Source: an uncultured Acidimicrobiales bacterium
GTDB taxonomy: Bacteria > Actinomycetota > Acidimicrobiia > Acidimicrobiales > UBA10347
NCBI GenBank assembly: GCA_937941245.1
Contig: CALDYC010000067.1
Coordinates: 1-64,000 of the forward strand
DNA: 64,000 bases
Direction of reading: 5' to 3'
The notes beneath the pieces are model-generated. The model was not told the DNA's origin and did not search any database. It saw only the letters and a list, made by a program, of their open reading frames with translations. Shown here piece after piece: positions 7,657 through 46,478 of the stretch (positions are counted from its first letter, which is position 1; every line of letters starts with the position of its first letter). The position numbers and the translations under genes were made by a program.

Positions 7657-8028
7657 ATGTCCAAGGTTGAAGATGTCCTGACCACGATCGAGGGCATGAC
7701 TGTTCTCGAGCTGAGCGAACTGCTCACGGCATTCGAAGAGAAGTTCGATGTCACCGCAGCAGCTCCAGTTGCAGCCGCAGCAGCTCCTGCTGGTGGCGGC
7801 GCCGCAGTTGAAGAGAAGGATGAGTTTGACGTGGTGATCGTGGCTGAAGGTGCCAAGAAGATCGCCGTGATCAAGGAAGTCCGCAGCATCACCGGTCTTG
7901 GCCTCAAAGAGGCCAAAGAACTGGTCGAATCACTGCCTAAGCCTGTGCTCGAGGGCGCAAGCAAGGACGATGCTGAAAAGGCCAAGGCCGCGCTTGAAGA
8001 AGCCGGCGCTCAGGTCGAACTTAAGTGA
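7657..8028 (+). CDS. rplL: 50S ribosomal protein L7/L12
   Basis: [48 protein letters not shown]. Confidence 0.96.
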
Positions 8029-8032
8029 TCAC

Positions 8033-8102
8033 GCGGCGCCCTTGTGGCGCCGCACCCGTATATCTGCACCGATCGGGAGTCACAGCTTCGGCTGTGGCTC
8101 CC
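8033..8102 (+). terminator. Tandem hairpins between rplL and rpmE2
   Basis: GCGGCGCC-CTTGT-GGCGCCGC (8033-8053) and GGGAGTCACAGC-TTCG-GCTGTGGCTCCC (8075-8102); no clear T tract. Confidence 0.5.
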
Positions 8103-8202
8103 GTGAAGGTCACCCCGGCCATCGCCTGCCGCAGAGCGCAGGCGCCGCCAATCCGCTTCGGCTGGAACACGACCAGCTAACCCGATTATGATTTGGAGCA
8201 CC

Positions 8203-8481
8203 ATGAGGCCCGACATTCACCCCGAGTATCGCGACGTTGTCTTTCTGGACACCCAGAACGGCACGAGCTTCATCACCCGCTCCACGATCACGACTGAAGA
8301 GACCACTGACGTAGACGGCGTCGAGTATCCCCTCGCTAAGGTCGAGATCTCGGCAGCGAGCCACCCCTTCTACACCGGCACGATGGCGATCATCGATACC
8401 GCTGGTCGCGTCGAGCGCTTCGAAAAGCGTTACGGCCGCCGCAAAAAGAAGGCTGGCGGAGCCGAAGAGGCAACCGAGTAA
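8203..8481 (+). CDS. rpmE2: 50S ribosomal protein L31 type B (cysteine-free)
   Basis: [29 protein letters not shown]...ASHPFYTG...[12 protein letters not shown]; lacks the Zn-binding Cys residues. Confidence 0.9.
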
Positions 8482-8485
8482 CCCA

Positions 8486-9526
8486 CTGGCTCTTTCATCT
8501 GAGCAGCGAAGCGCACTATGGGCCGCCAAGGTCGGTGCGCTTGCGCGTGATGCACTCGGGCATCTCGAGGGGGACATTTCCCCGACTTCTTGGGGTGCGG
8601 TGCACCGCGGCGATTCAGGGGTTGTCGCTCTCATCGAATTGGACCCGATCCGTTCCTATGGTCTGGTTCTCGCTGCTTGTGCGGCGGGACCGAGCAGCGG
8701 CGGAACCCCGGCCGCTCCGATCACCATTCTTGTGAACGAACGTGCCAGCGATCTGGCGCGTCTCGCGCAGGATCTGGGCCCTGCAGTCCACATCGCCGAG
8801 ATTGACGGGTCGACGGTCACCCCTGCGGTCGCGGCCGCTCCAATCGACGTTCCCACAACCGAGTTGCAGACAGAGTTTCGCGAGCTCTTCGATCACGCAG
8901 GGCTGCACACGGTCGACGAGTTCGCCGCAATCACCGCCGAGTTTCGCGGCCTAGAGGTGGCGCGAGTAACCGGAGTCAACGACACCCAGCGCGTCGACGT
9001 CGGAATCGGCGCCTATGACCAGGGCGCATTCGCGATGATGAACCCCGAGTTCAACGCGAAAGAGTCGCTCGCGTACGTCGTTCGCCAGGCTGGCGAGCAC
9101 CGGGTCCGGGGTGCCGAACCGCACCCGATGAACCGCTTGGTCCGAGAGCGTTGGCTGCGTGCCGAAGCACTCGTTGACCCGACGCTCGTCGGTTGCGTCT
9201 CGATCGAAGCGGTCGCCCCTGCTCGCCCGCGGGGCGGGCTCCATGAGATGGCCCCATCATTTGCCATTGGTCACTCAGTCGGTGGGGCCACCACTCTGCT
9301 GGCCTTTTCGGTCGGGATCGATCTGGCTCTCGTTCCCGATGCGGTTGAAGTCGCGAGCCGTTTTGCGATCGAGTCGGTTGCATTCGTCGTTCCCGAACAG
9401 GATCAGCATCGTGTCACCCTCGATGCGGCCGGACAGATGCGCTGGCCGGCAACCTTCCTGATTCCCGATCTTCCGTGGGCAGCTCCCGCAGGCTCGACGC
9501 CGGCGCCAAGTAGGTTGCGGCGGTGA
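8486..9526 (+). CDS. Conserved hypothetical protein between rpmE2 and prfA; start uncertain (GTG 8600 or CTG 8486)
   Basis: Frame open well upstream of 8600 with protein-like sequence LALSSEQRSALWAAKVGALARDALGHLEGDISPTSWGAVHRGD; overlaps prfA start. Confidence 0.65.
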   Translation: MALSSEQRSALWAAKVGALARDALGHLEGDISPTSWGAVHRGDSGVVALIELDPIRSYGLVLAACAAGPSSGGTPAAPITILVNERASDLARLAQDLGPAVHIAEIDGSTVTPAVAAAPIDVPTTELQTEFRELFDHAGLHTVDEFAAITAEFRGLEVARVTGVNDTQRVDVGIGAYDQGAFAMMNPEFNAKESLAYVVRQAGEHRVRGAEPHPMNRLVRERWLRAEALVDPTLVGCVSIEAVAPARPRGGLHEMAPSFAIGHSVGGATTLLAFSVGIDLALVPDAVEVASRFAIESVAFVVPEQDQHRVTLDAAGQMRWPATFLIPDLPWAAPAGSTPAPSRLRR

Positions 9527-36889: not shown

Positions 36890-37771
36890 TTATCGAACCG
36901 GAAGAGACCGACGTTCGGCCTCGTCGAGCAAGGCGCCGGGTCGAGTTGGGGCGAACAGAAAGCGGCGGACGTCGGTGATGTTCGCGGCTTGGGCGGTTGA
37001 TCGTCGATTGTCCACCAGACCCAACGGCGCCGGATCAGTGAGCTCGCACTCAAGTAGCAGGCCCGCAGCGTTGCCAGACAGGTCACGTGCGGGGCTTCCG
37101 GCGATGGCTGCACCAAGACGTTCGACCGAACTTTGGCGAAACAGCACCGGCTCAGTAACGGTTGCATAGTCGTGCAGCACAAATCCGTTTGGCACGAACA
37201 CGATCCACCGCCGGGTCAGTTCGTACATTGCCCGGCCACCGATGAGCACGAGGGCCGCTCCGGCGCCGGTCGCGAGTACACCGAGGACCCACTGGCGGTG
37301 AGCGAGCAGCAGGGGACCGGCGACAAGCCCGGTCACGGTCGTTGCCCACGTGAGCGGAAGCCCAACGGTGAGTACCGAAATCTGTGGGCGGAGCAGCATG
37401 CGACGTTCGTTGCCGTAGCTAGCGCCATCGACGAAGAGGTCACCGATCAACTGGCTCAGCGCAACAACCGTGACCGCCACGCCGTGCGCGACCGCAATCG
37501 CTTCGCCACTTGTGGCTCCTGCTGTGAACAGCAGCCAGCCGCCGACACCGACGGTTGCAGGGGCAAGCGTACGAATGATCGCCAAAGTGCTCGGAAGCGG
37601 TAGCGCAACAGCGGCCAAGCCAATGGCCCAGAGCGCCCAGAGGCCGACAGCGACTGTCCATCGAACGGCGGCGTCATCGCCGCTGAGCGAGATGCTGACC
37701 TGGTCGATCAACGTCAGCGGCAGCAGAAACCACAGTGTGCGCAGTATCCAGATCGCTGCAGTCCGCATCAT
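36890..37771 (-). CDS. Conserved membrane protein of unknown function
   Basis: Several TM segments followed by a cytoplasmic C-terminal domain. Confidence 0.65.
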   Translation of the reverse strand: MMRTAAIWILRTLWFLLPLTLIDQVSISLSGDDAAVRWTVAVGLWALWAIGLAAVALPLPSTLAIIRTLAPATVGVGGWLLFTAGATSGEAIAVAHGVAVTVVALSQLIGDLFVDGASYGNERRMLLRPQISVLTVGLPLTWATTVTGLVAGPLLLAHRQWVLGVLATGAGAALVLIGGRAMYELTRRWIVFVPNGFVLHDYATVTEPVLFRQSSVERLGAAIAGSPARDLSGNAAGLLLECELTDPAPLGLVDNRRSTAQAANITDVRRFLFAPTRPGALLDEAERRSLPVR

Positions 37772-37839: not shown

Positions 37840-39882
<2,043 letters not shown>

Positions 39883-39939: not shown

Positions 39940-40356
39940 TCAGCTGGTGAAGAAGCACCAGGTGTAAATCTGGGCATTGGCGGGCCCCTGGGCAATCTCC
40001 CAGTAACGGGCCTGCATACAGTTCTGATCAGCCAACAGCGCCGTAACGGTCTTGTCTGCCCCCGGCCGATACGAGACCAAGTTGAGTCCGCGGACCTCTT
40101 GCATCTCCGAGCGCGGAATGGTCACGCCATTGACCACAAGCTCAGCGTCGTATCCAGCTGCGAGATCGATCACGATCTCGGTCTGGCTCAACACATTGTC
40201 GCCAGAAGCCGGGGTCACGGCCTGGATCGCTGTCGGCAAGCCGTTGTTCTCAGGGTTGTTCGCGTAAATGATGACGGCGGTCGCAAAGATCGCAGCGGCA
40301 AACGCCAGGATCGCCAACACCGTCAATCGTTGGGTCTTCGCCTGTGGCAGATCCAT
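39940..40356 (-). CDS. Membrane-anchored hypothetical protein
   Basis: N-terminal TM (LTVLAILAFAAAIFATAVIIYA) and extracytoplasmic domain. Confidence 0.6.
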   Translation of the reverse strand: MDLPQAKTQRLTVLAILAFAAAIFATAVIIYANNPENNGLPTAIQAVTPASGDNVLSQTEIVIDLAAGYDAELVVNGVTIPRSEMQEVRGLNLVSYRPGADKTVTALLADQNCMQARYWEIAQGPANAQIYTWCFFTS

Positions 40357-40479: not shown

Positions 40480-42744
40480 ATGACATCAGCAGTGTGGTCT
40501 GAATATCTCGGACAGGTGATTGCGGGCCGGTATCTGCTCGAGTCTGCCCTTCGGTCCGATGCTGCCGTCTTCGAGGCGCTCGACACAACACGGCACGAGC
40601 ACGTCTGTATCGAGTTGTTCGCGATCGCTGACGATGCCGAAGCCAGGGAACAGTTCCATACCCAGATTGGCGCTGCGGCGGAACTCATTCACCCAAATAT
40701 TGCGACCATTCACGACTGGGGAACCGATGAGGTCGCTTGGGTCGCGAGCGAATTGTGCGCCTATGGGACACTCGACGGCGCGTTGGTCGAGACAGGCTCG
40801 CTTACTCCTAGTCAAGCGGTCGTGCTTGGCATCGAGGTATCTCGTGCACTCGACTACGCCCACGAACTCGGATTTGTTCATGGGCGAATCACGTCCGCCC
40901 AGATCGCGCTCAACGCGGATCTGCGAACTCGCGTGCTCGGCATTGGGCTGCCGCTACATCTACTCGGCAAACCCGATGGCGCCGACCCAGAAATGCAACG
41001 CCGCCGCGCCGCAAGCTATGTCGCCCCTGAGCAGGCCAACGGCTCTCCCGCAACTCCCGCGAGCGACGTCTGGTCGCTCGCTCTAATCTTGAACGAGGCG
41101 GTATCGGCCATCGCTCCGCCCATCGGCGAGTCGCTGGTTGACACGCTTCGGATGCGGGCCGAAGAACCGGTGGAACCCGATGCCGACTTGGATGAGATCC
41201 GCGACGTCGTCGCCGCTGCGATGGACCGACAGCCAACTGAGCGGCCAACTGCAAGCATGTTTGCCGAAGCGTTGATGGACGTCGCCGAAGGCATGGCTGC
41301 CCCGGTGGCCTTTGCGTGGTCACGCCCCGCAACCAGTCCGGTTCTTGCGGACAGCGACCCGTCACCCGGCGATGAGCTCGACTCGGTCGGCGCGGGTTCC
41401 ACCGATGCTGAATTGGCAGAAGCCGACCTGTCTAGTGAGTTCGACATTTTTCAAATCGACCCTGAGCCTGCAGACGTCGACGCATCCGACCTTGCGTCGG
41501 CCGGCGATGAGTCGGCAGAGTTCGATACATACGACACATACGACCTTCCGCCGATCGAAGGTGACCCTGCGGAGGTCGATGCATACGACTCTTCGCTGGT
41601 CCATGATGGGCCGTCGGCTGCCGTTGATGAGTCTGTTGACGTCCCGACCAGCGACATATCACCACTCGGACCTACCGACGCGCTCGACCGCGAGACGGTG
41701 TCCCATGTGGGCGGGGGCGATCCCATCGATGCGCCGGTCAGCGTTCCCCGAAGCGTGGTGGCAACAGCCGCCATCGACGACGATGACGTCGGCCCGCTTC
41801 CGGCCTGGCCGCTCGTGGCCCTGTTCGTGCTCGTTGCAGCGGCACTCGGCGCAGTCGCAGTGTCGTGGCTCACCAGCGGAGGAATCGGTTCTTCTTCGGT
41901 ACCTGACGTCACCGGCCAGCCATTCGACGCGGCCTCGTCAGAGCTCATCGCCGATGGCTGGAGCGTCGAGCGTCTCGAGACTCGTTCGGCCGACGCAGAA
42001 CCGGGCGACGTCGTCGCTCAGTCGCCAGAACCGGGAGCCGACGCCTCGCGGTCCGAGCCAGTGTCGCTGACGGTGACGCTCGGCAAGGATCTGGTCGAGA
42101 TTCCTGATGACATGGTCGGTCTGACCGTGCCTCAAGCCGAGGAACGACTCAGGCTGGTCGGGCTCAACGTCGGCAGCCTGGATCGCGTGAACAGCGAGGC
42201 GCTCGCGTCGGGTTTGGTGCTTGGCACCGACGAGCCCACCACGCAGAAACCCGAAGGCGAAGCGGTCGACCTGCGCGTCTCGTTGGGCCCGGCCGACCGC
42301 CAGATCCCGAACTCGATCATCGGTGCCACAATTGCCGATGCAACCGCCACGCTTACCTCGCTTCGTATCGGCATCGTCGAAGAAGAGGTATTTGACGAGG
42401 CAGTGCCGGTCGGCGTGGTTGTCTCGATCATCCCCGGTCCCGGAACCTCGGTTGCCGCTGATTCGGTGGTGCAGGTGCAAGTCAGCGCCGGACCGGCCCC
42501 AGTGGTTGTACCAGATGTGATCGGACTCGGTCTTGGCGAAGCGCGAGAGCTTCTCGAAGGACTTGGTCTGCTCTTCATTGACAGCCGCGGCACCCCAGGC
42601 GAGCCAGCAATCGGTTCAGCGCCGCCTGCGGGCCAGGAAGTAGACGTCGGTTCGGAGTTCATCATCATCCTCGGTGAGCCGAGCGACAACGAAGAGGGCG
42701 AGCCGGGCGAGCCAAACGACGGTGACGAGGTCAGCGACAACTGA
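40480..42744 (+). CDS. PknB-like pseudokinase with TM and four PASTA domains
   Basis: Kinase fold GRYLLESALRS...LIHPNIATIHDWG...SYVAPEQANGSPATPASDVWSLALIL; PASTA repeats SSVPDVTGQPF, LVEIPDDMVGLT, RQIPNSIIGAT, VVVPDVIGLGL. Confidence 0.88.
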   Translation: MTSAVWSEYLGQVIAGRYLLESALRSDAAVFEALDTTRHEHVCIELFAIADDAEAREQFHTQIGAAAELIHPNIATIHDWGTDEVAWVASELCAYGTLDGALVETGSLTPSQAVVLGIEVSRALDYAHELGFVHGRITSAQIALNADLRTRVLGIGLPLHLLGKPDGADPEMQRRRAASYVAPEQANGSPATPASDVWSLALILNEAVSAIAPPIGESLVDTLRMRAEEPVEPDADLDEIRDVVAAAMDRQPTERPTASMFAEALMDVAEGMAAPVAFAWSRPATSPVLADSDPSPGDELDSVGAGSTDAELAEADLSSEFDIFQIDPEPADVDASDLASAGDESAEFDTYDTYDLPPIEGDPAEVDAYDSSLVHDGPSAAVDESVDVPTSDISPLGPTDALDRETVSHVGGGDPIDAPVSVPRSVVATAAIDDDDVGPLPAWPLVALFVLVAAALGAVAVSWLTSGGIGSSSVPDVTGQPFDAASSELIADGWSVERLETRSADAEPGDVVAQSPEPGADASRSEPVSLTVTLGKDLVEIPDDMVGLTVPQAEERLRLVGLNVGSLDRVNSEALASGLVLGTDEPTTQKPEGEAVDLRVSLGPADRQIPNSIIGATIADATATLTSLRIGIVEEEVFDEAVPVGVVVSIIPGPGTSVAADSVVQVQVSAGPAPVVVPDVIGLGLGEARELLEGLGLLFIDSRGTPGEPAIGSAPPAGQEVDVGSEFIIILGEPSDNEEGEPGEPNDGDEVSDN

Positions 42745-42761: not shown

Positions 42762-43181
42762 TCAGGCGGTGATTGCTTCGAGCCGGCTGACGACCTTCTC
42801 AGCGAGTGCCTGCTGGTCGGCCGTGGGATCCATGTCTTGGAGGTCCAGCAAACGCGAAACATCGCCTTCGACGGTGATCTCACCGCTCATGAACGCAATC
42901 ATCAGGGCTTCGAAATCTTGATTGACAAGCATGTTGCGGGCTACTTCGTAGGGCAAATGTACGGTGACGTCCGCCTGCTCAAGATGGCCGAGGTCAGGCA
43001 CCAGGCTTCCGGCTGACGTATCTACATGCCCAAGAACCGTGCCATCATCAAATGGCGCATCGGTGACCGTGACATTGAGCTGTAGCGGATCGTCGGGAAT
43101 CGTGAAGTCAGCTTCGAATTCGGATTGGATCTCGCGTGCGGCGGCGATCCACGAATTGGACAGAAAGACATGTCGACTCAC
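42762..43181 (-). CDS. SCP2 sterol-binding-like protein
   Basis: DVTVHLPYEVARNMLVNQDFEALMIAFMSGEITVEGDVSRLLDLQ. Confidence 0.7.
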   Translation of the reverse strand: MSRHVFLSNSWIAAAREIQSEFEADFTIPDDPLQLNVTVTDAPFDDGTVLGHVDTSAGSLVPDLGHLEQADVTVHLPYEVARNMLVNQDFEALMIAFMSGEITVEGDVSRLLDLQDMDPTADQQALAEKVVSRLEAITA

Positions 43182-43292: not shown

Positions 43293-43588
43293 GCGAACGA
43301 ATCACCCGAGACGAGGTGGCGCACGTTGGGCAACTGGCGCGTCTGGTGATCACAGACGATGAGTTGACGATGTTCACTGAACAACTCGGCGCAGTGCTCG
43401 ACACCGCAAGCGATCTTGCTGCACTTGATCTATCGGGGGTCGAACCCATGGCACAGCCATGCGCTCTCACGAATGTCACCCGGCCAGACGTGATCGAACC
43501 AAGCCTTGGGCGCGACGAGGTCCTCGCCATGGCCCCAGCAGCCCAAGATGGTCGCTTCCGGGTACCGCCGGCCCTCGGTGAAGCATGA
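43289..43588 (+). CDS. gatC: Asp/Glu-tRNA amidotransferase subunit C
   Basis: [34 protein letters not shown]. Confidence 0.93.
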
Positions 43589-45063
43589 TGAACGCCCAAC
43601 TGACGGCGATCGAAACTGCTGCACGGGTGCGCTCGGGCGACATGACAGCGGTTGAGGCCCTAGCCCAATCACAGGCCGCGGTTACCGCTCGCGACGCAGA
43701 CGTGCGTGCATTTCTGCATCTCACCGATGACCGCGCAGCCGAACAGGCCGACCGGGTCGATGCACAGGTCGCTCAGGGCCAAGACCCGGGCCCGCTGGCA
43801 GGTGTCCCGATCGCGATCAAGGACAACATGTGCACCCGCGGTGCTCCCACGACGTGTAGCTCCAAAATGCTTGAAGGCTGGAAGCCCCCCTATGACGCCA
43901 CCGTCGTCAGCAGGCTTGAAGCGGCTGGAGCGCTCGTGGTCGGTAAGACCAACCTGGACGAATTCGCGATGGGTTCATCAACCGAGAATTCGGCGTTTGG
44001 CCCGACCCGAAACCCCCACGATCTCACCCGGGTACCTGGAGGCTCGAGTGGCGGTTCCGCAGCAGCTGTTGCAGCCGGATTCGTCCCGCTTTCACTCGGA
44101 AGCGATACCGGTGGGTCGATCCGCCAACCGGCAGCCTTGTGTGGCGTAGTTGGTTTCAAACCGACCTACGGAGCGGTGTCTCGGTACGGGCTGATCGCAT
44201 TTGCCAGCTCGCTTGACCAGATCGGGCCGTTCGCGTCAACTGTCGCAGACGCTGCGTTGTGTTTCGACACGATCGGCGGACACGACCCTCGCGATGCGAC
44301 GTCGATTCCGTCTGCGATTCCCTCGGCGGCTGCAGCGCTCGGCAACGGTGTGGCTGGCAAGCGCATCGGGATCATCGACGAGCTCATGGGCGAAGGCATC
44401 GATGACGATGTTCGGGCTCGAGTCGAGCAAGCTGCGGCAGCGCTGGCCGACGCAGGAGCGACGGTCGAACGAGTGAGCGTGCCCGCAACCATTTACGGGC
44501 TCGCCGCGTACTACCTCATCGCTCCAGCCGAAGCGTCGAGCAACCTGGCCCGCTACGACGGCGTTCGTTACGGTCAACGCGTCGACGGAGTCAACGTCGA
44601 AGAGATGAATGCAGCGACCCGAACTGCGGGATTCGGTGATGAGGTCAAGCGTCGCATCATGCTTGGTACCTACGCGTTGTCCTCTGGCTATTACGACGCG
44701 TATTACGGCAAGGCTCAACGGGTGCGAACCTTGATCGCGAACGAGTTTGCCCAGGCCTACTCGTCGTTCGATCTGTTGATGTCGCCAACGTCTCCATCGA
44801 CGGCGTTCGAGCTCGGGGCCAAGAGCGACCCGATGTCGCTGTACATGTGCGATGTGTGCACCATCCCGTCGAACTTGGTTGGGCACCCTGCACTATCAGT
44901 GCCGTTCGGTGTCGGTGACGACGGACTGCCAGTCGGCGTGCAGCTGCTTGCGCCGCTACTTGGCGACGACGAGCTGTTCGCTGCTGGTCAGGTGCTCGAA
45001 GATGCCAACCCGACCGATGCGACCGCATCTGGTTCAGAAATCCGCGGAGAGGTACGGCCATGA
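43585..45063 (+). CDS. gatA: Asp/Glu-tRNA amidotransferase subunit A
   Basis: [43 protein letters not shown]. Confidence 0.96.
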
Positions 45064-46478
45064 GTGAGCTTCCTGACGGCTGGGAGATGGTTATCGGGCT
45101 CGAAGTCCATGTCGAACTCGCGACCCAGACCAAACTGTTCTGTCCGTGCGCCAACGCGTTTGGCGATGAGCCCAACACCAACATCTGCCCGACCTGCCTG
45201 GGGCTGCCTGGCTCGCTTCCGGTTCCGAACGCACAAGCAATTGACTACGCGATGACGCTTGGCCACGCTCTCGGGTGCACCGTTGCTGGGTCGGTCTTCG
45301 CCCGCAAGAACTATTTCTACCCGGACATGCCGAAGGACTACCAAACCACCCAGTACGAGCATCCGACAAACGAGAACGGCTCAATCACGTTGGGTGATGG
45401 CACCGTGATCGGCGTCGAACGCGCTCACATCGAAGAGGACACTGGCAAGTCCACCCACCTCGGTGGAGGTGGTCGAATTCATGATGCGACGGCGACCTTG
45501 GTCGACTACAACCGAGCGGGCGTGCCGCTCGTTGAGGTCGTCAGCCGGCCCGAAATGCGCTCGGCGGACCAGGCTCGGGCCTATGTCTCGGAGCTACGTG
45601 ACATCTTGCTGGCTACCGGCGTGAGCGATGCGCGTATGGAAGAAGGCTCGATGAGGGTCGACGCGAATGTGTCGGTGCGTCCGGTGGGTAGCGATGAGCT
45701 GCGTACCCGGTGCGAGTTGAAGAACATCAACTCGATGCGATCTCTGGGCCGAGCAATCAACTACGAGGCTCGGCGTCATGTCGATCTCTATGAGTCGGGC
45801 CAGTCGCCAAACCAACAGACCCGGCACTGGGATGAGGATGGCGGACGATCGACGCCCGGGCGTTCCAAAGAAGACGCTGACGACTACCGGTATTTCGCCT
45901 GTCCTGATCTTCCGCCGTTGGTTCCGACGGACGAAGAAATGCAGGCAATTCGAGCAGGACTGCCGGTGTTGCCGGCAGCTCGCCGCCAGGCTCTGGCCGA
46001 TGCGACCGGTATCGAAGCCGGCCAAGCGGTTCTTGCGGTTGAGCGTGGGCTCGATGCATTGGCGATCGCCGCGGTGCGGGCCGGAGCGCCCGGCGATGTT
46101 GTGATCAAACACGTTGACCAGAACCTTTCTGATGGCGCTGGTCAGCTCGACGGGCCCATGCTCGCCAAGCTGGTCGGGCTCGAAGTCAGCGGAGCGCTGA
46201 GTGCTACGCAGGTGAAGACCGTGCTTGGTGAACTGGTGGCCAGCGGTGGCGACCCGGCAGATGTTGCAGCTTCGATGGGTTTCGAAGCCATGGACAGTTC
46301 CGAGCTGGCGACGTTGCTTGATCAGCTGATCGCAGACAACCCCGACGAGTGGCAACGGTTTACTGAAGGTGACACCAAGGTGCAGGGATTCTTTGTCGGC
46401 CAGATCATGAAGGCCACGCAGGGCAAGGCTGATGGCAAGATTGTCAATCAGCTGATGAAAGAGCGAAGCTCAGGTTGA
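45060..46478 (+). CDS. gatB: Asp/Glu-tRNA amidotransferase subunit B
   Basis: [48 protein letters not shown]. Confidence 0.96.

Follow-up and report, generated by a model that had tools for sequence, protein, structure and literature searches.

A degenerate PASTA receptor kinase encoded between ligA and gatAB in an uncultured member of the Acidimicrobiales

Closest described systems

In Gram-positive bacteria, PASTA kinases are a main known link between the state of the cell wall and Ser/Thr phosphorylation; the share of catalysis in their function is an open question in the field. In the PknB/Stk1 group (PknB of Mycobacterium tuberculosis, PknB of Staphylococcus aureus and StkP), a kinase domain is followed by a linker, a transmembrane helix and four PASTA repeats. 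The protein analysed here has the same layout, and its best fold and profile matches fall into this group, but it is devoid of any catalytic residue. Its score against the NCBIfam model NF033483 is 206.9 bits, which is below the equivalog cut-off of 450.

A review from 2025 distinguishes seven families of bacterial pseudokinases (ActPs1-3, GLW, CP1, DYD and DLHK), none of which is described there as containing PASTA repeats; the term PASTA appears solely among its references (PMC12599244). Residues of the catalytic triad are also lost in ActPs1, ActPs2, GLW, CP1, DYD and DLHK, some of which carry a C-terminal transmembrane region (PMC12599244). However, the window protein features neither the PQQ domain nor the 250-aa loop insertion, the GLW motif or the ATPase domain of these families. 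By description, ActPs1 members harbour a PQQ domain after the kinase domain and often lack the G-helix. Pfam detected no PQQ domain in our protein, and AlphaFold2 predicted a helix in the G-helix region (residues 219-228). ActPs2 is characterised by a beta3 Arg, an HRN motif and an activation-loop insertion of about 250 aa; the corresponding features here are E45, HGR and the absence of a long insertion.

The pseudokinase of mycobacterial MviN/MurJ (family ActPs3) is likewise membrane-associated, of actinobacterial origin and connected with envelope synthesis (PMC12599244). It is a fusion to MurJ without PASTA repeats, while no MurJ domain was found in our protein by Pfam, and the activation-loop deletion of ActPs3 has no counterpart in its activation segment, which aligns without deletion. 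The original prediction had named MviN, which lacks PASTA domains, as a precedent for pseudokinase control of envelope synthesis, but the parallel is a loose one. In the four genomes of the genus with MurJ matches above the cut-off, the MurJ frames span about 580-770 aa and no fusion to a pseudokinase was seen, so that an MviN-type arrangement in this genus was rejected. MviN of M. tuberculosis is much longer than these frames.

EssB/YukC of type VII secretion is another bacterial pseudokinase anchored in the membrane, and its role is structural, not catalytic (PMC12599244). No PASTA repeats are described for it, and the gene studied here is part of a housekeeping block (ligA, gatAB) in which no secretion genes were recognised alongside. 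A full-text literature search did not yield a PASTA pseudokinase within the portion of the literature that it covered, subscription papers and large kinase-classification studies being outside its scope. We regard the protein as a PASTA receptor kinase turned pseudokinase, a change that has taken place several times.

Locus and domain architecture

The window, i.e. the entire analysed stretch of 64,000 nucleotides (contig CALDYC010000067.1, assembly GCA_937941245.1), contains the gene on its forward strand at positions 40,480-42,744 (start codon ATG at 40,480, stop at 42,744). The encoded protein has a length of 754 aa. Residues 1-275 (40,480-41,304) form the pseudokinase domain, as recognised by Pfam (PK_Tyr_Ser-Thr, PF07714, 69 bits; Pkinase, PF00069, 58 bits), AlphaFold2 and Foldseek. 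The following linker (residues 276-443; 41,305-41,808) comprises 168 residues, 41 of which are acidic and 3 basic. Acidic linkers of 114-182 aa were found throughout the genus (family f1), compared to an overall median near 85 aa with near-neutral charge. Hydropathy indicates a single transmembrane helix at about residues 443-463 (41,806-41,868). Four PASTA stretches (121 bits in Pfam) are located at 41,899-42,075, 42,109-42,282, 42,316-42,486 and 42,502-42,672. Pfam, hydropathy and linker composition are thus in agreement with the initially proposed PknB layout of kinase fold, acidic linker, one transmembrane segment and four PASTA repeats. An open reading frame of 754 codons with such domain scores, together with degenerate counterparts at this locus in five other species of the genus, rules out chance as a serious option.

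Upstream, the gene is preceded by ligA (37,852-39,882, forward strand; assigned by Pfam and synteny) and by a divergent gene on the reverse strand (39,940-40,356) for a conserved single-TM protein of 138 aa. Downstream follow a convergent gene on the reverse strand (42,762-43,181) and gatA-gatB (43,585-46,478, forward strand; gatA assigned by NCBIfam, gatB by position and sequence). The product of the convergent gene is a conserved, syntenic protein of 139 aa, labelled SCP2-like by eye only and without a match in Pfam or NCBIfam; in many families, its gene lies between the kinase gene and gatA. A conserved hydrophobic protein without a family match is encoded between mnmA and ligA (36,890-37,771, reverse strand), and synteny is likewise kept in many families. 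The alternation of strands among the genes of the block is conserved as well.

Replacement of catalytic residues and predicted fold

The protein was aligned with 106 relatives (107 sequences) and with PknB of M. tuberculosis. The motifs quoted in the original prediction align exactly with the positions of the Gly-rich loop, VAIK, HRDxKxxN, DFG, APE and DxWS. The Gly-rich loop is degenerate and shortened (ALRSDAAV, residues 23-30; 40,546-40,569). At the beta3 VAIK site (VCIELF; 40,603-40,620), K40 of PknB is replaced by E45, and Q62 takes the place of the alphaC glutamate E59. The catalytic loop reads HGRITSAQI instead of HRDxKxxN (residues 134-142; 40,879-40,905), with G135, R136, T138 and Q141 at the positions of R137, D138, K140 and N143. 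The DFG site is LGIGL (residues 153-157; 40,936-40,950), in which G154 occupies the position of D156. The Thr/Ser of the GT/S motif following the activation loop (T179 in PknB) is T or S in 66 of 66 active copies, but A177 in the window protein. A displaced but intact Lys or Asp was ruled out, as none was found nearby in the alignment. All four motifs regarded as lost are replaced at their aligned positions. Judged from these replacements, the window protein is probably without catalytic activity.

The fold markers are retained, as had been proposed: YVAPEQ (41,017-41,034) with the invariant residues P183 and E184, and DVWSLA (41,065-41,082) with the invariant D196. The fold residues H68, P185, E186, D198, E208 and R262 (PknB numbering) are all present in the window protein, and the latter five are 100% kept across the alignment, whereas the catalytic residues are not. 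An AlphaFold2 model of the domain, calculated from 32 sequences (the window and loci of relatives), predicts a kinase fold with high confidence (pLDDT 92.7, pTM 0.90), and the best Foldseek matches of this model are PknA and PknB of M. tuberculosis (TM about 0.8). By sequence, the single domain is closer to PknA than to PknB, while the family profile is closer to PknB.

Orthology and genomic context

When 298 genomes of the order were searched, most genera yielded matches that were better by far than PknB. These matches share a conserved block across the order (ligA, a small divergent gene, the kinase gene, a small convergent gene, gatA and gatB). Compared with PknB, the orthologues between ligA and gatAB give by far the higher scores with the window gene. 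Similar kinases with high scores were also obtained from other orders of the class, judged by score alone. In about 40 families of the order, the kinase encoded between ligA and gatAB is catalytically intact. From this sequence comparison we conclude that the window gene is a degenerate syntenic orthologue of a second PASTA kinase present across the order, rather than a broken PknB, since its best matches share its ligA-gatAB block. This distinction was beyond the reach of the original prediction, which was made from the sequence alone.

The host genome, with an assembly completeness of 71.5%, yielded four Pkinase matches, and PASTA repeats were found only in PknB and the window gene. The active-looking PknB paralogue that was searched for is encoded on another contig and has intact VAVK, HRDVKPGN and DFG motifs. 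In contrast to the location of the window gene between ligA and gatAB, the pknB gene adjoins a gene for a penicillin-binding-protein-like protein, with FHA genes on the same contig. Each of the six species in the genus has an intact PknB, as do most of the other checked genomes that carry a degenerate copy. A degenerate copy of PknB itself was ruled out, given the intact PknB elsewhere and the placement of the window gene in its own orthologue clade.

Repeated and graded loss

The 107 loci were classed as 66 intact and 41 degenerate. Degenerate copies occur in seven families, the window genus and six others: f1 (the window genus; 6/6 species), f7 (11/11 sampled), f22 (9/11), f26 (10/11), f51 (3/3), and f12 and f35 with one genome each. 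On a species tree of ligA, gatA and gatB from 96 genomes, the state of the kinase requires seven changes. Well-supported branches enforce at least five of these, and a single loss may account for f1 and f51 together. As the tree is based on a quick search with a simple model and on some partly incomplete rows, the number of losses is given as five to seven. Catalysis thus appears to have been lost independently about seven times, and at least five times. Such repeated loss at one locus suggests a lasting job that does not need phosphorylation.

Loss is graded within the window genus. At the VAIK, HRD and DFG sites, two species have VALK/HRNLTPHN/DYG and VALK/HGNLTPRN/DYG (G070 and G165) and two have VALK/HQGLKPEN with DMG or DLG (G106 and G138). 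The far end of the gradient is represented by G016 (VLIE/HGRLSPAH/GTG) and the window protein (VCIE/HGRITSAQ/GIG). The beta3 Lys and the Asp at the DFG position are kept in four of the six congeners, in which ATP binding could still be possible. The Asp at the HRD position is kept in 8 of the 41 degenerate copies, mostly in f7 and in one copy each of f26 and f35; these proteins could be impaired rather than dead. In f7 copies such as L181, L185, L186 and L189 this Asp is found in the motifs HAD, HHD, HLD and HGD, while the catalytic-loop Lys and Asn are absent, so these copies are possible ATP-binding intermediates.

Several lineages, including these four congeners, combine the beta3 Lys and the DFG-position Asp with the lack of the HRD Asp, and pseudokinases that have acquired new activities are on record in bacteria (PMC12599244). 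Both observations would be in line with unusual binding of ATP or another ligand by the fold, as in SelO, WNK or SidJ. However, the Lys, both Asp residues and the Gly loop are jointly gone in the window protein and in G016, and we regard altered catalysis as very improbable.

Partly degenerate motifs were apparently also present in three kinases of about 395 aa at positions of about 8000-9160 in two Kibdelosporangium genomes and a Rhodococcus rhodnii record (L005, L006 and L007; VAVRLF, HRDIHPGN or HGGVHPGN, TDVGIA). These kinases are too short to resemble a PASTA receptor.

Selection on the retained parts

All 40 degenerate orthologues scanned with Pfam gave both PASTA and Pkinase matches. 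A transmembrane segment and an open frame without stops were found in every degenerate copy, and the ectodomain has a median length of 273 aa in the intact and the degenerate class alike. Kinase-domain dN/dS was 0.10-0.11 in the two same-genus pairs, 0.13-0.25 in most pairs of f26 and 0.18-0.56 in f7, compared to 0.03-0.40 in intact pairs; these values are rough, with several dS above 1, and originate from pairs of close relatives, while the nearest relative of the window copy is just about 36-41% identical. In the closely related degenerate pairs, this sequence-based measure indicates purifying selection. The reading as a pseudokinase with PASTA repeats is well supported by this selection in close relatives, by the replacement of all catalytic residues and by the retained fold.

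Kinase-domain identity to intact copies of other families is 0.58 for intact and 0.38 for degenerate lineages. The identity of LigA falls only from 0.57 to 0.52 and that of the PASTA part from 0.34 to 0.29. The acceleration therefore affects mainly the kinase domain.

Loss of catalytic sites in several lineages might also be expected of a pseudogene that decays once the second kinase is no longer needed, and relaxation of the kinase domain is compatible with the pair G194/G256, which is too close, with too few differences, for an informative dN/dS. Open frames in every copy, dN/dS values of 0.1-0.25 in most measurable pairs of f1 and f26, and the retention of PASTA repeats, transmembrane segment and fold across whole families argue against decay. 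In addition, the loss must be old, as it is common to all sampled members of f1 and f7. Such a pseudogene is hardly credible.

Proposed function and the PknB dimer face

We consider it fairly probable that the window protein is a peptidoglycan-sensing receptor without phosphotransfer, whose kinase fold acts as a docking or allosteric module. The sequence shows descent from a catalytically competent second PASTA kinase encoded between ligA and gatAB. In the window lineage, this kinase became a pseudokinase with retained PASTA sensor, membrane anchor and kinase fold. Outside the cell, the PASTA ectodomain would most likely bind fragments of peptidoglycan or lipid II, a role suggested by the PASTA repeats only. 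Inside, the state would be relayed by protein contact in place of phosphate transfer, with the kinase fold and the long acidic linker docking a partner; candidates are the intact PknB, one of its substrates or an FHA protein. Signalling by docking, as put forward in the original prediction, is thus plausible. The sensor, the anchor and the fold are always kept, while the active site, the Thr of the activation segment and the contact at the PknB L33 site are released, which fits a receptor acting by contact.

Alternatively, the PASTA ectodomain alone could do the work, either in competition with PknB for muropeptides or lipid II or as a mark of the septum and pole, with the pseudokinase domain as a passive remnant that merely has to fold. 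The ectodomain is present with unchanged length in every degenerate copy. One study links overexpression of the PknB PASTA domain alone in mycobacteria to growth phenotypes (PMC4632501), and the PASTA domain is reported to be adequate for localisation (PMC6428115); both reports favour a self-sufficient ectodomain. A passive remnant, however, should be lost or decay, whereas a full kinase-fold match with invariant fold residues was found in 40 of 40 copies and dN/dS is well below 1 in most measurable pairs. We therefore consider a mere competitor or marker unlikely.

A third way of acting was examined at the PknB dimer face, where the N lobe of the pseudokinase could pair back-to-back with PknB and switch it on as a heterodimeric allosteric activator. 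R10 and D76 of PknB are dimer residues and align with R17 and D79 of the window protein; R17 is invariant in 107 of 107 sequences and D79 is kept in 34 of 41 degenerate copies. A back-to-back dimer with PknB was initially favoured for this conservation and then weakened by the loss at the L33 site. This site is Leu in 100% of the active copies and in 39% of the degenerate class; the window protein has R38 here and its congeners have E, D, A or V, so that the residue is charged in most of the genus. The PknB variants L33D, L33E and D76A exist as deposited mutant structures and presumably disturb the back-to-back interface. The loss of the L33 contact disfavours a PknB-like heterodimer through this face, and activation of PknB in this way is improbable.

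For the contact-acting receptor, the genomic neighbourhood points to the divergent gene at 39,940-40,356, the product of which may be a partner of the pseudokinase. Homologues were found at about 80 loci, divergent from the kinase gene. The protein has one N-terminal transmembrane helix and an Ig-like beta-sandwich as outside domain (AlphaFold2, pLDDT 91.9), the fold of which weakly matches those of CopC and of mycobacterial L,D-transpeptidases (Ldt-Ig); there was no match in Pfam or NCBIfam.

Tentatively, the PASTA 'kinase' encoded between ligA and gatAB might have a conserved job independent of catalysis even in the intact orthologues, although we hold this broader proposal to be somewhat doubtful. 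It would explain about seven losses within one order with fold, transmembrane segment and PASTA repeats always kept.

Implications

The locus provides a natural experiment: most families carry the syntenic orthologue in intact form, seven have degenerate copies, and intermediate states are found within one genus. The non-catalytic part of PASTA-receptor function thereby becomes directly testable. The few listed families of bacterial pseudokinases also gain a PASTA-bearing member. If the job of this receptor is indeed independent of catalysis, it would represent a new pseudokinase family, the intermediates of which would allow one to trace step by step how a bacterial signalling kinase loses its activity.
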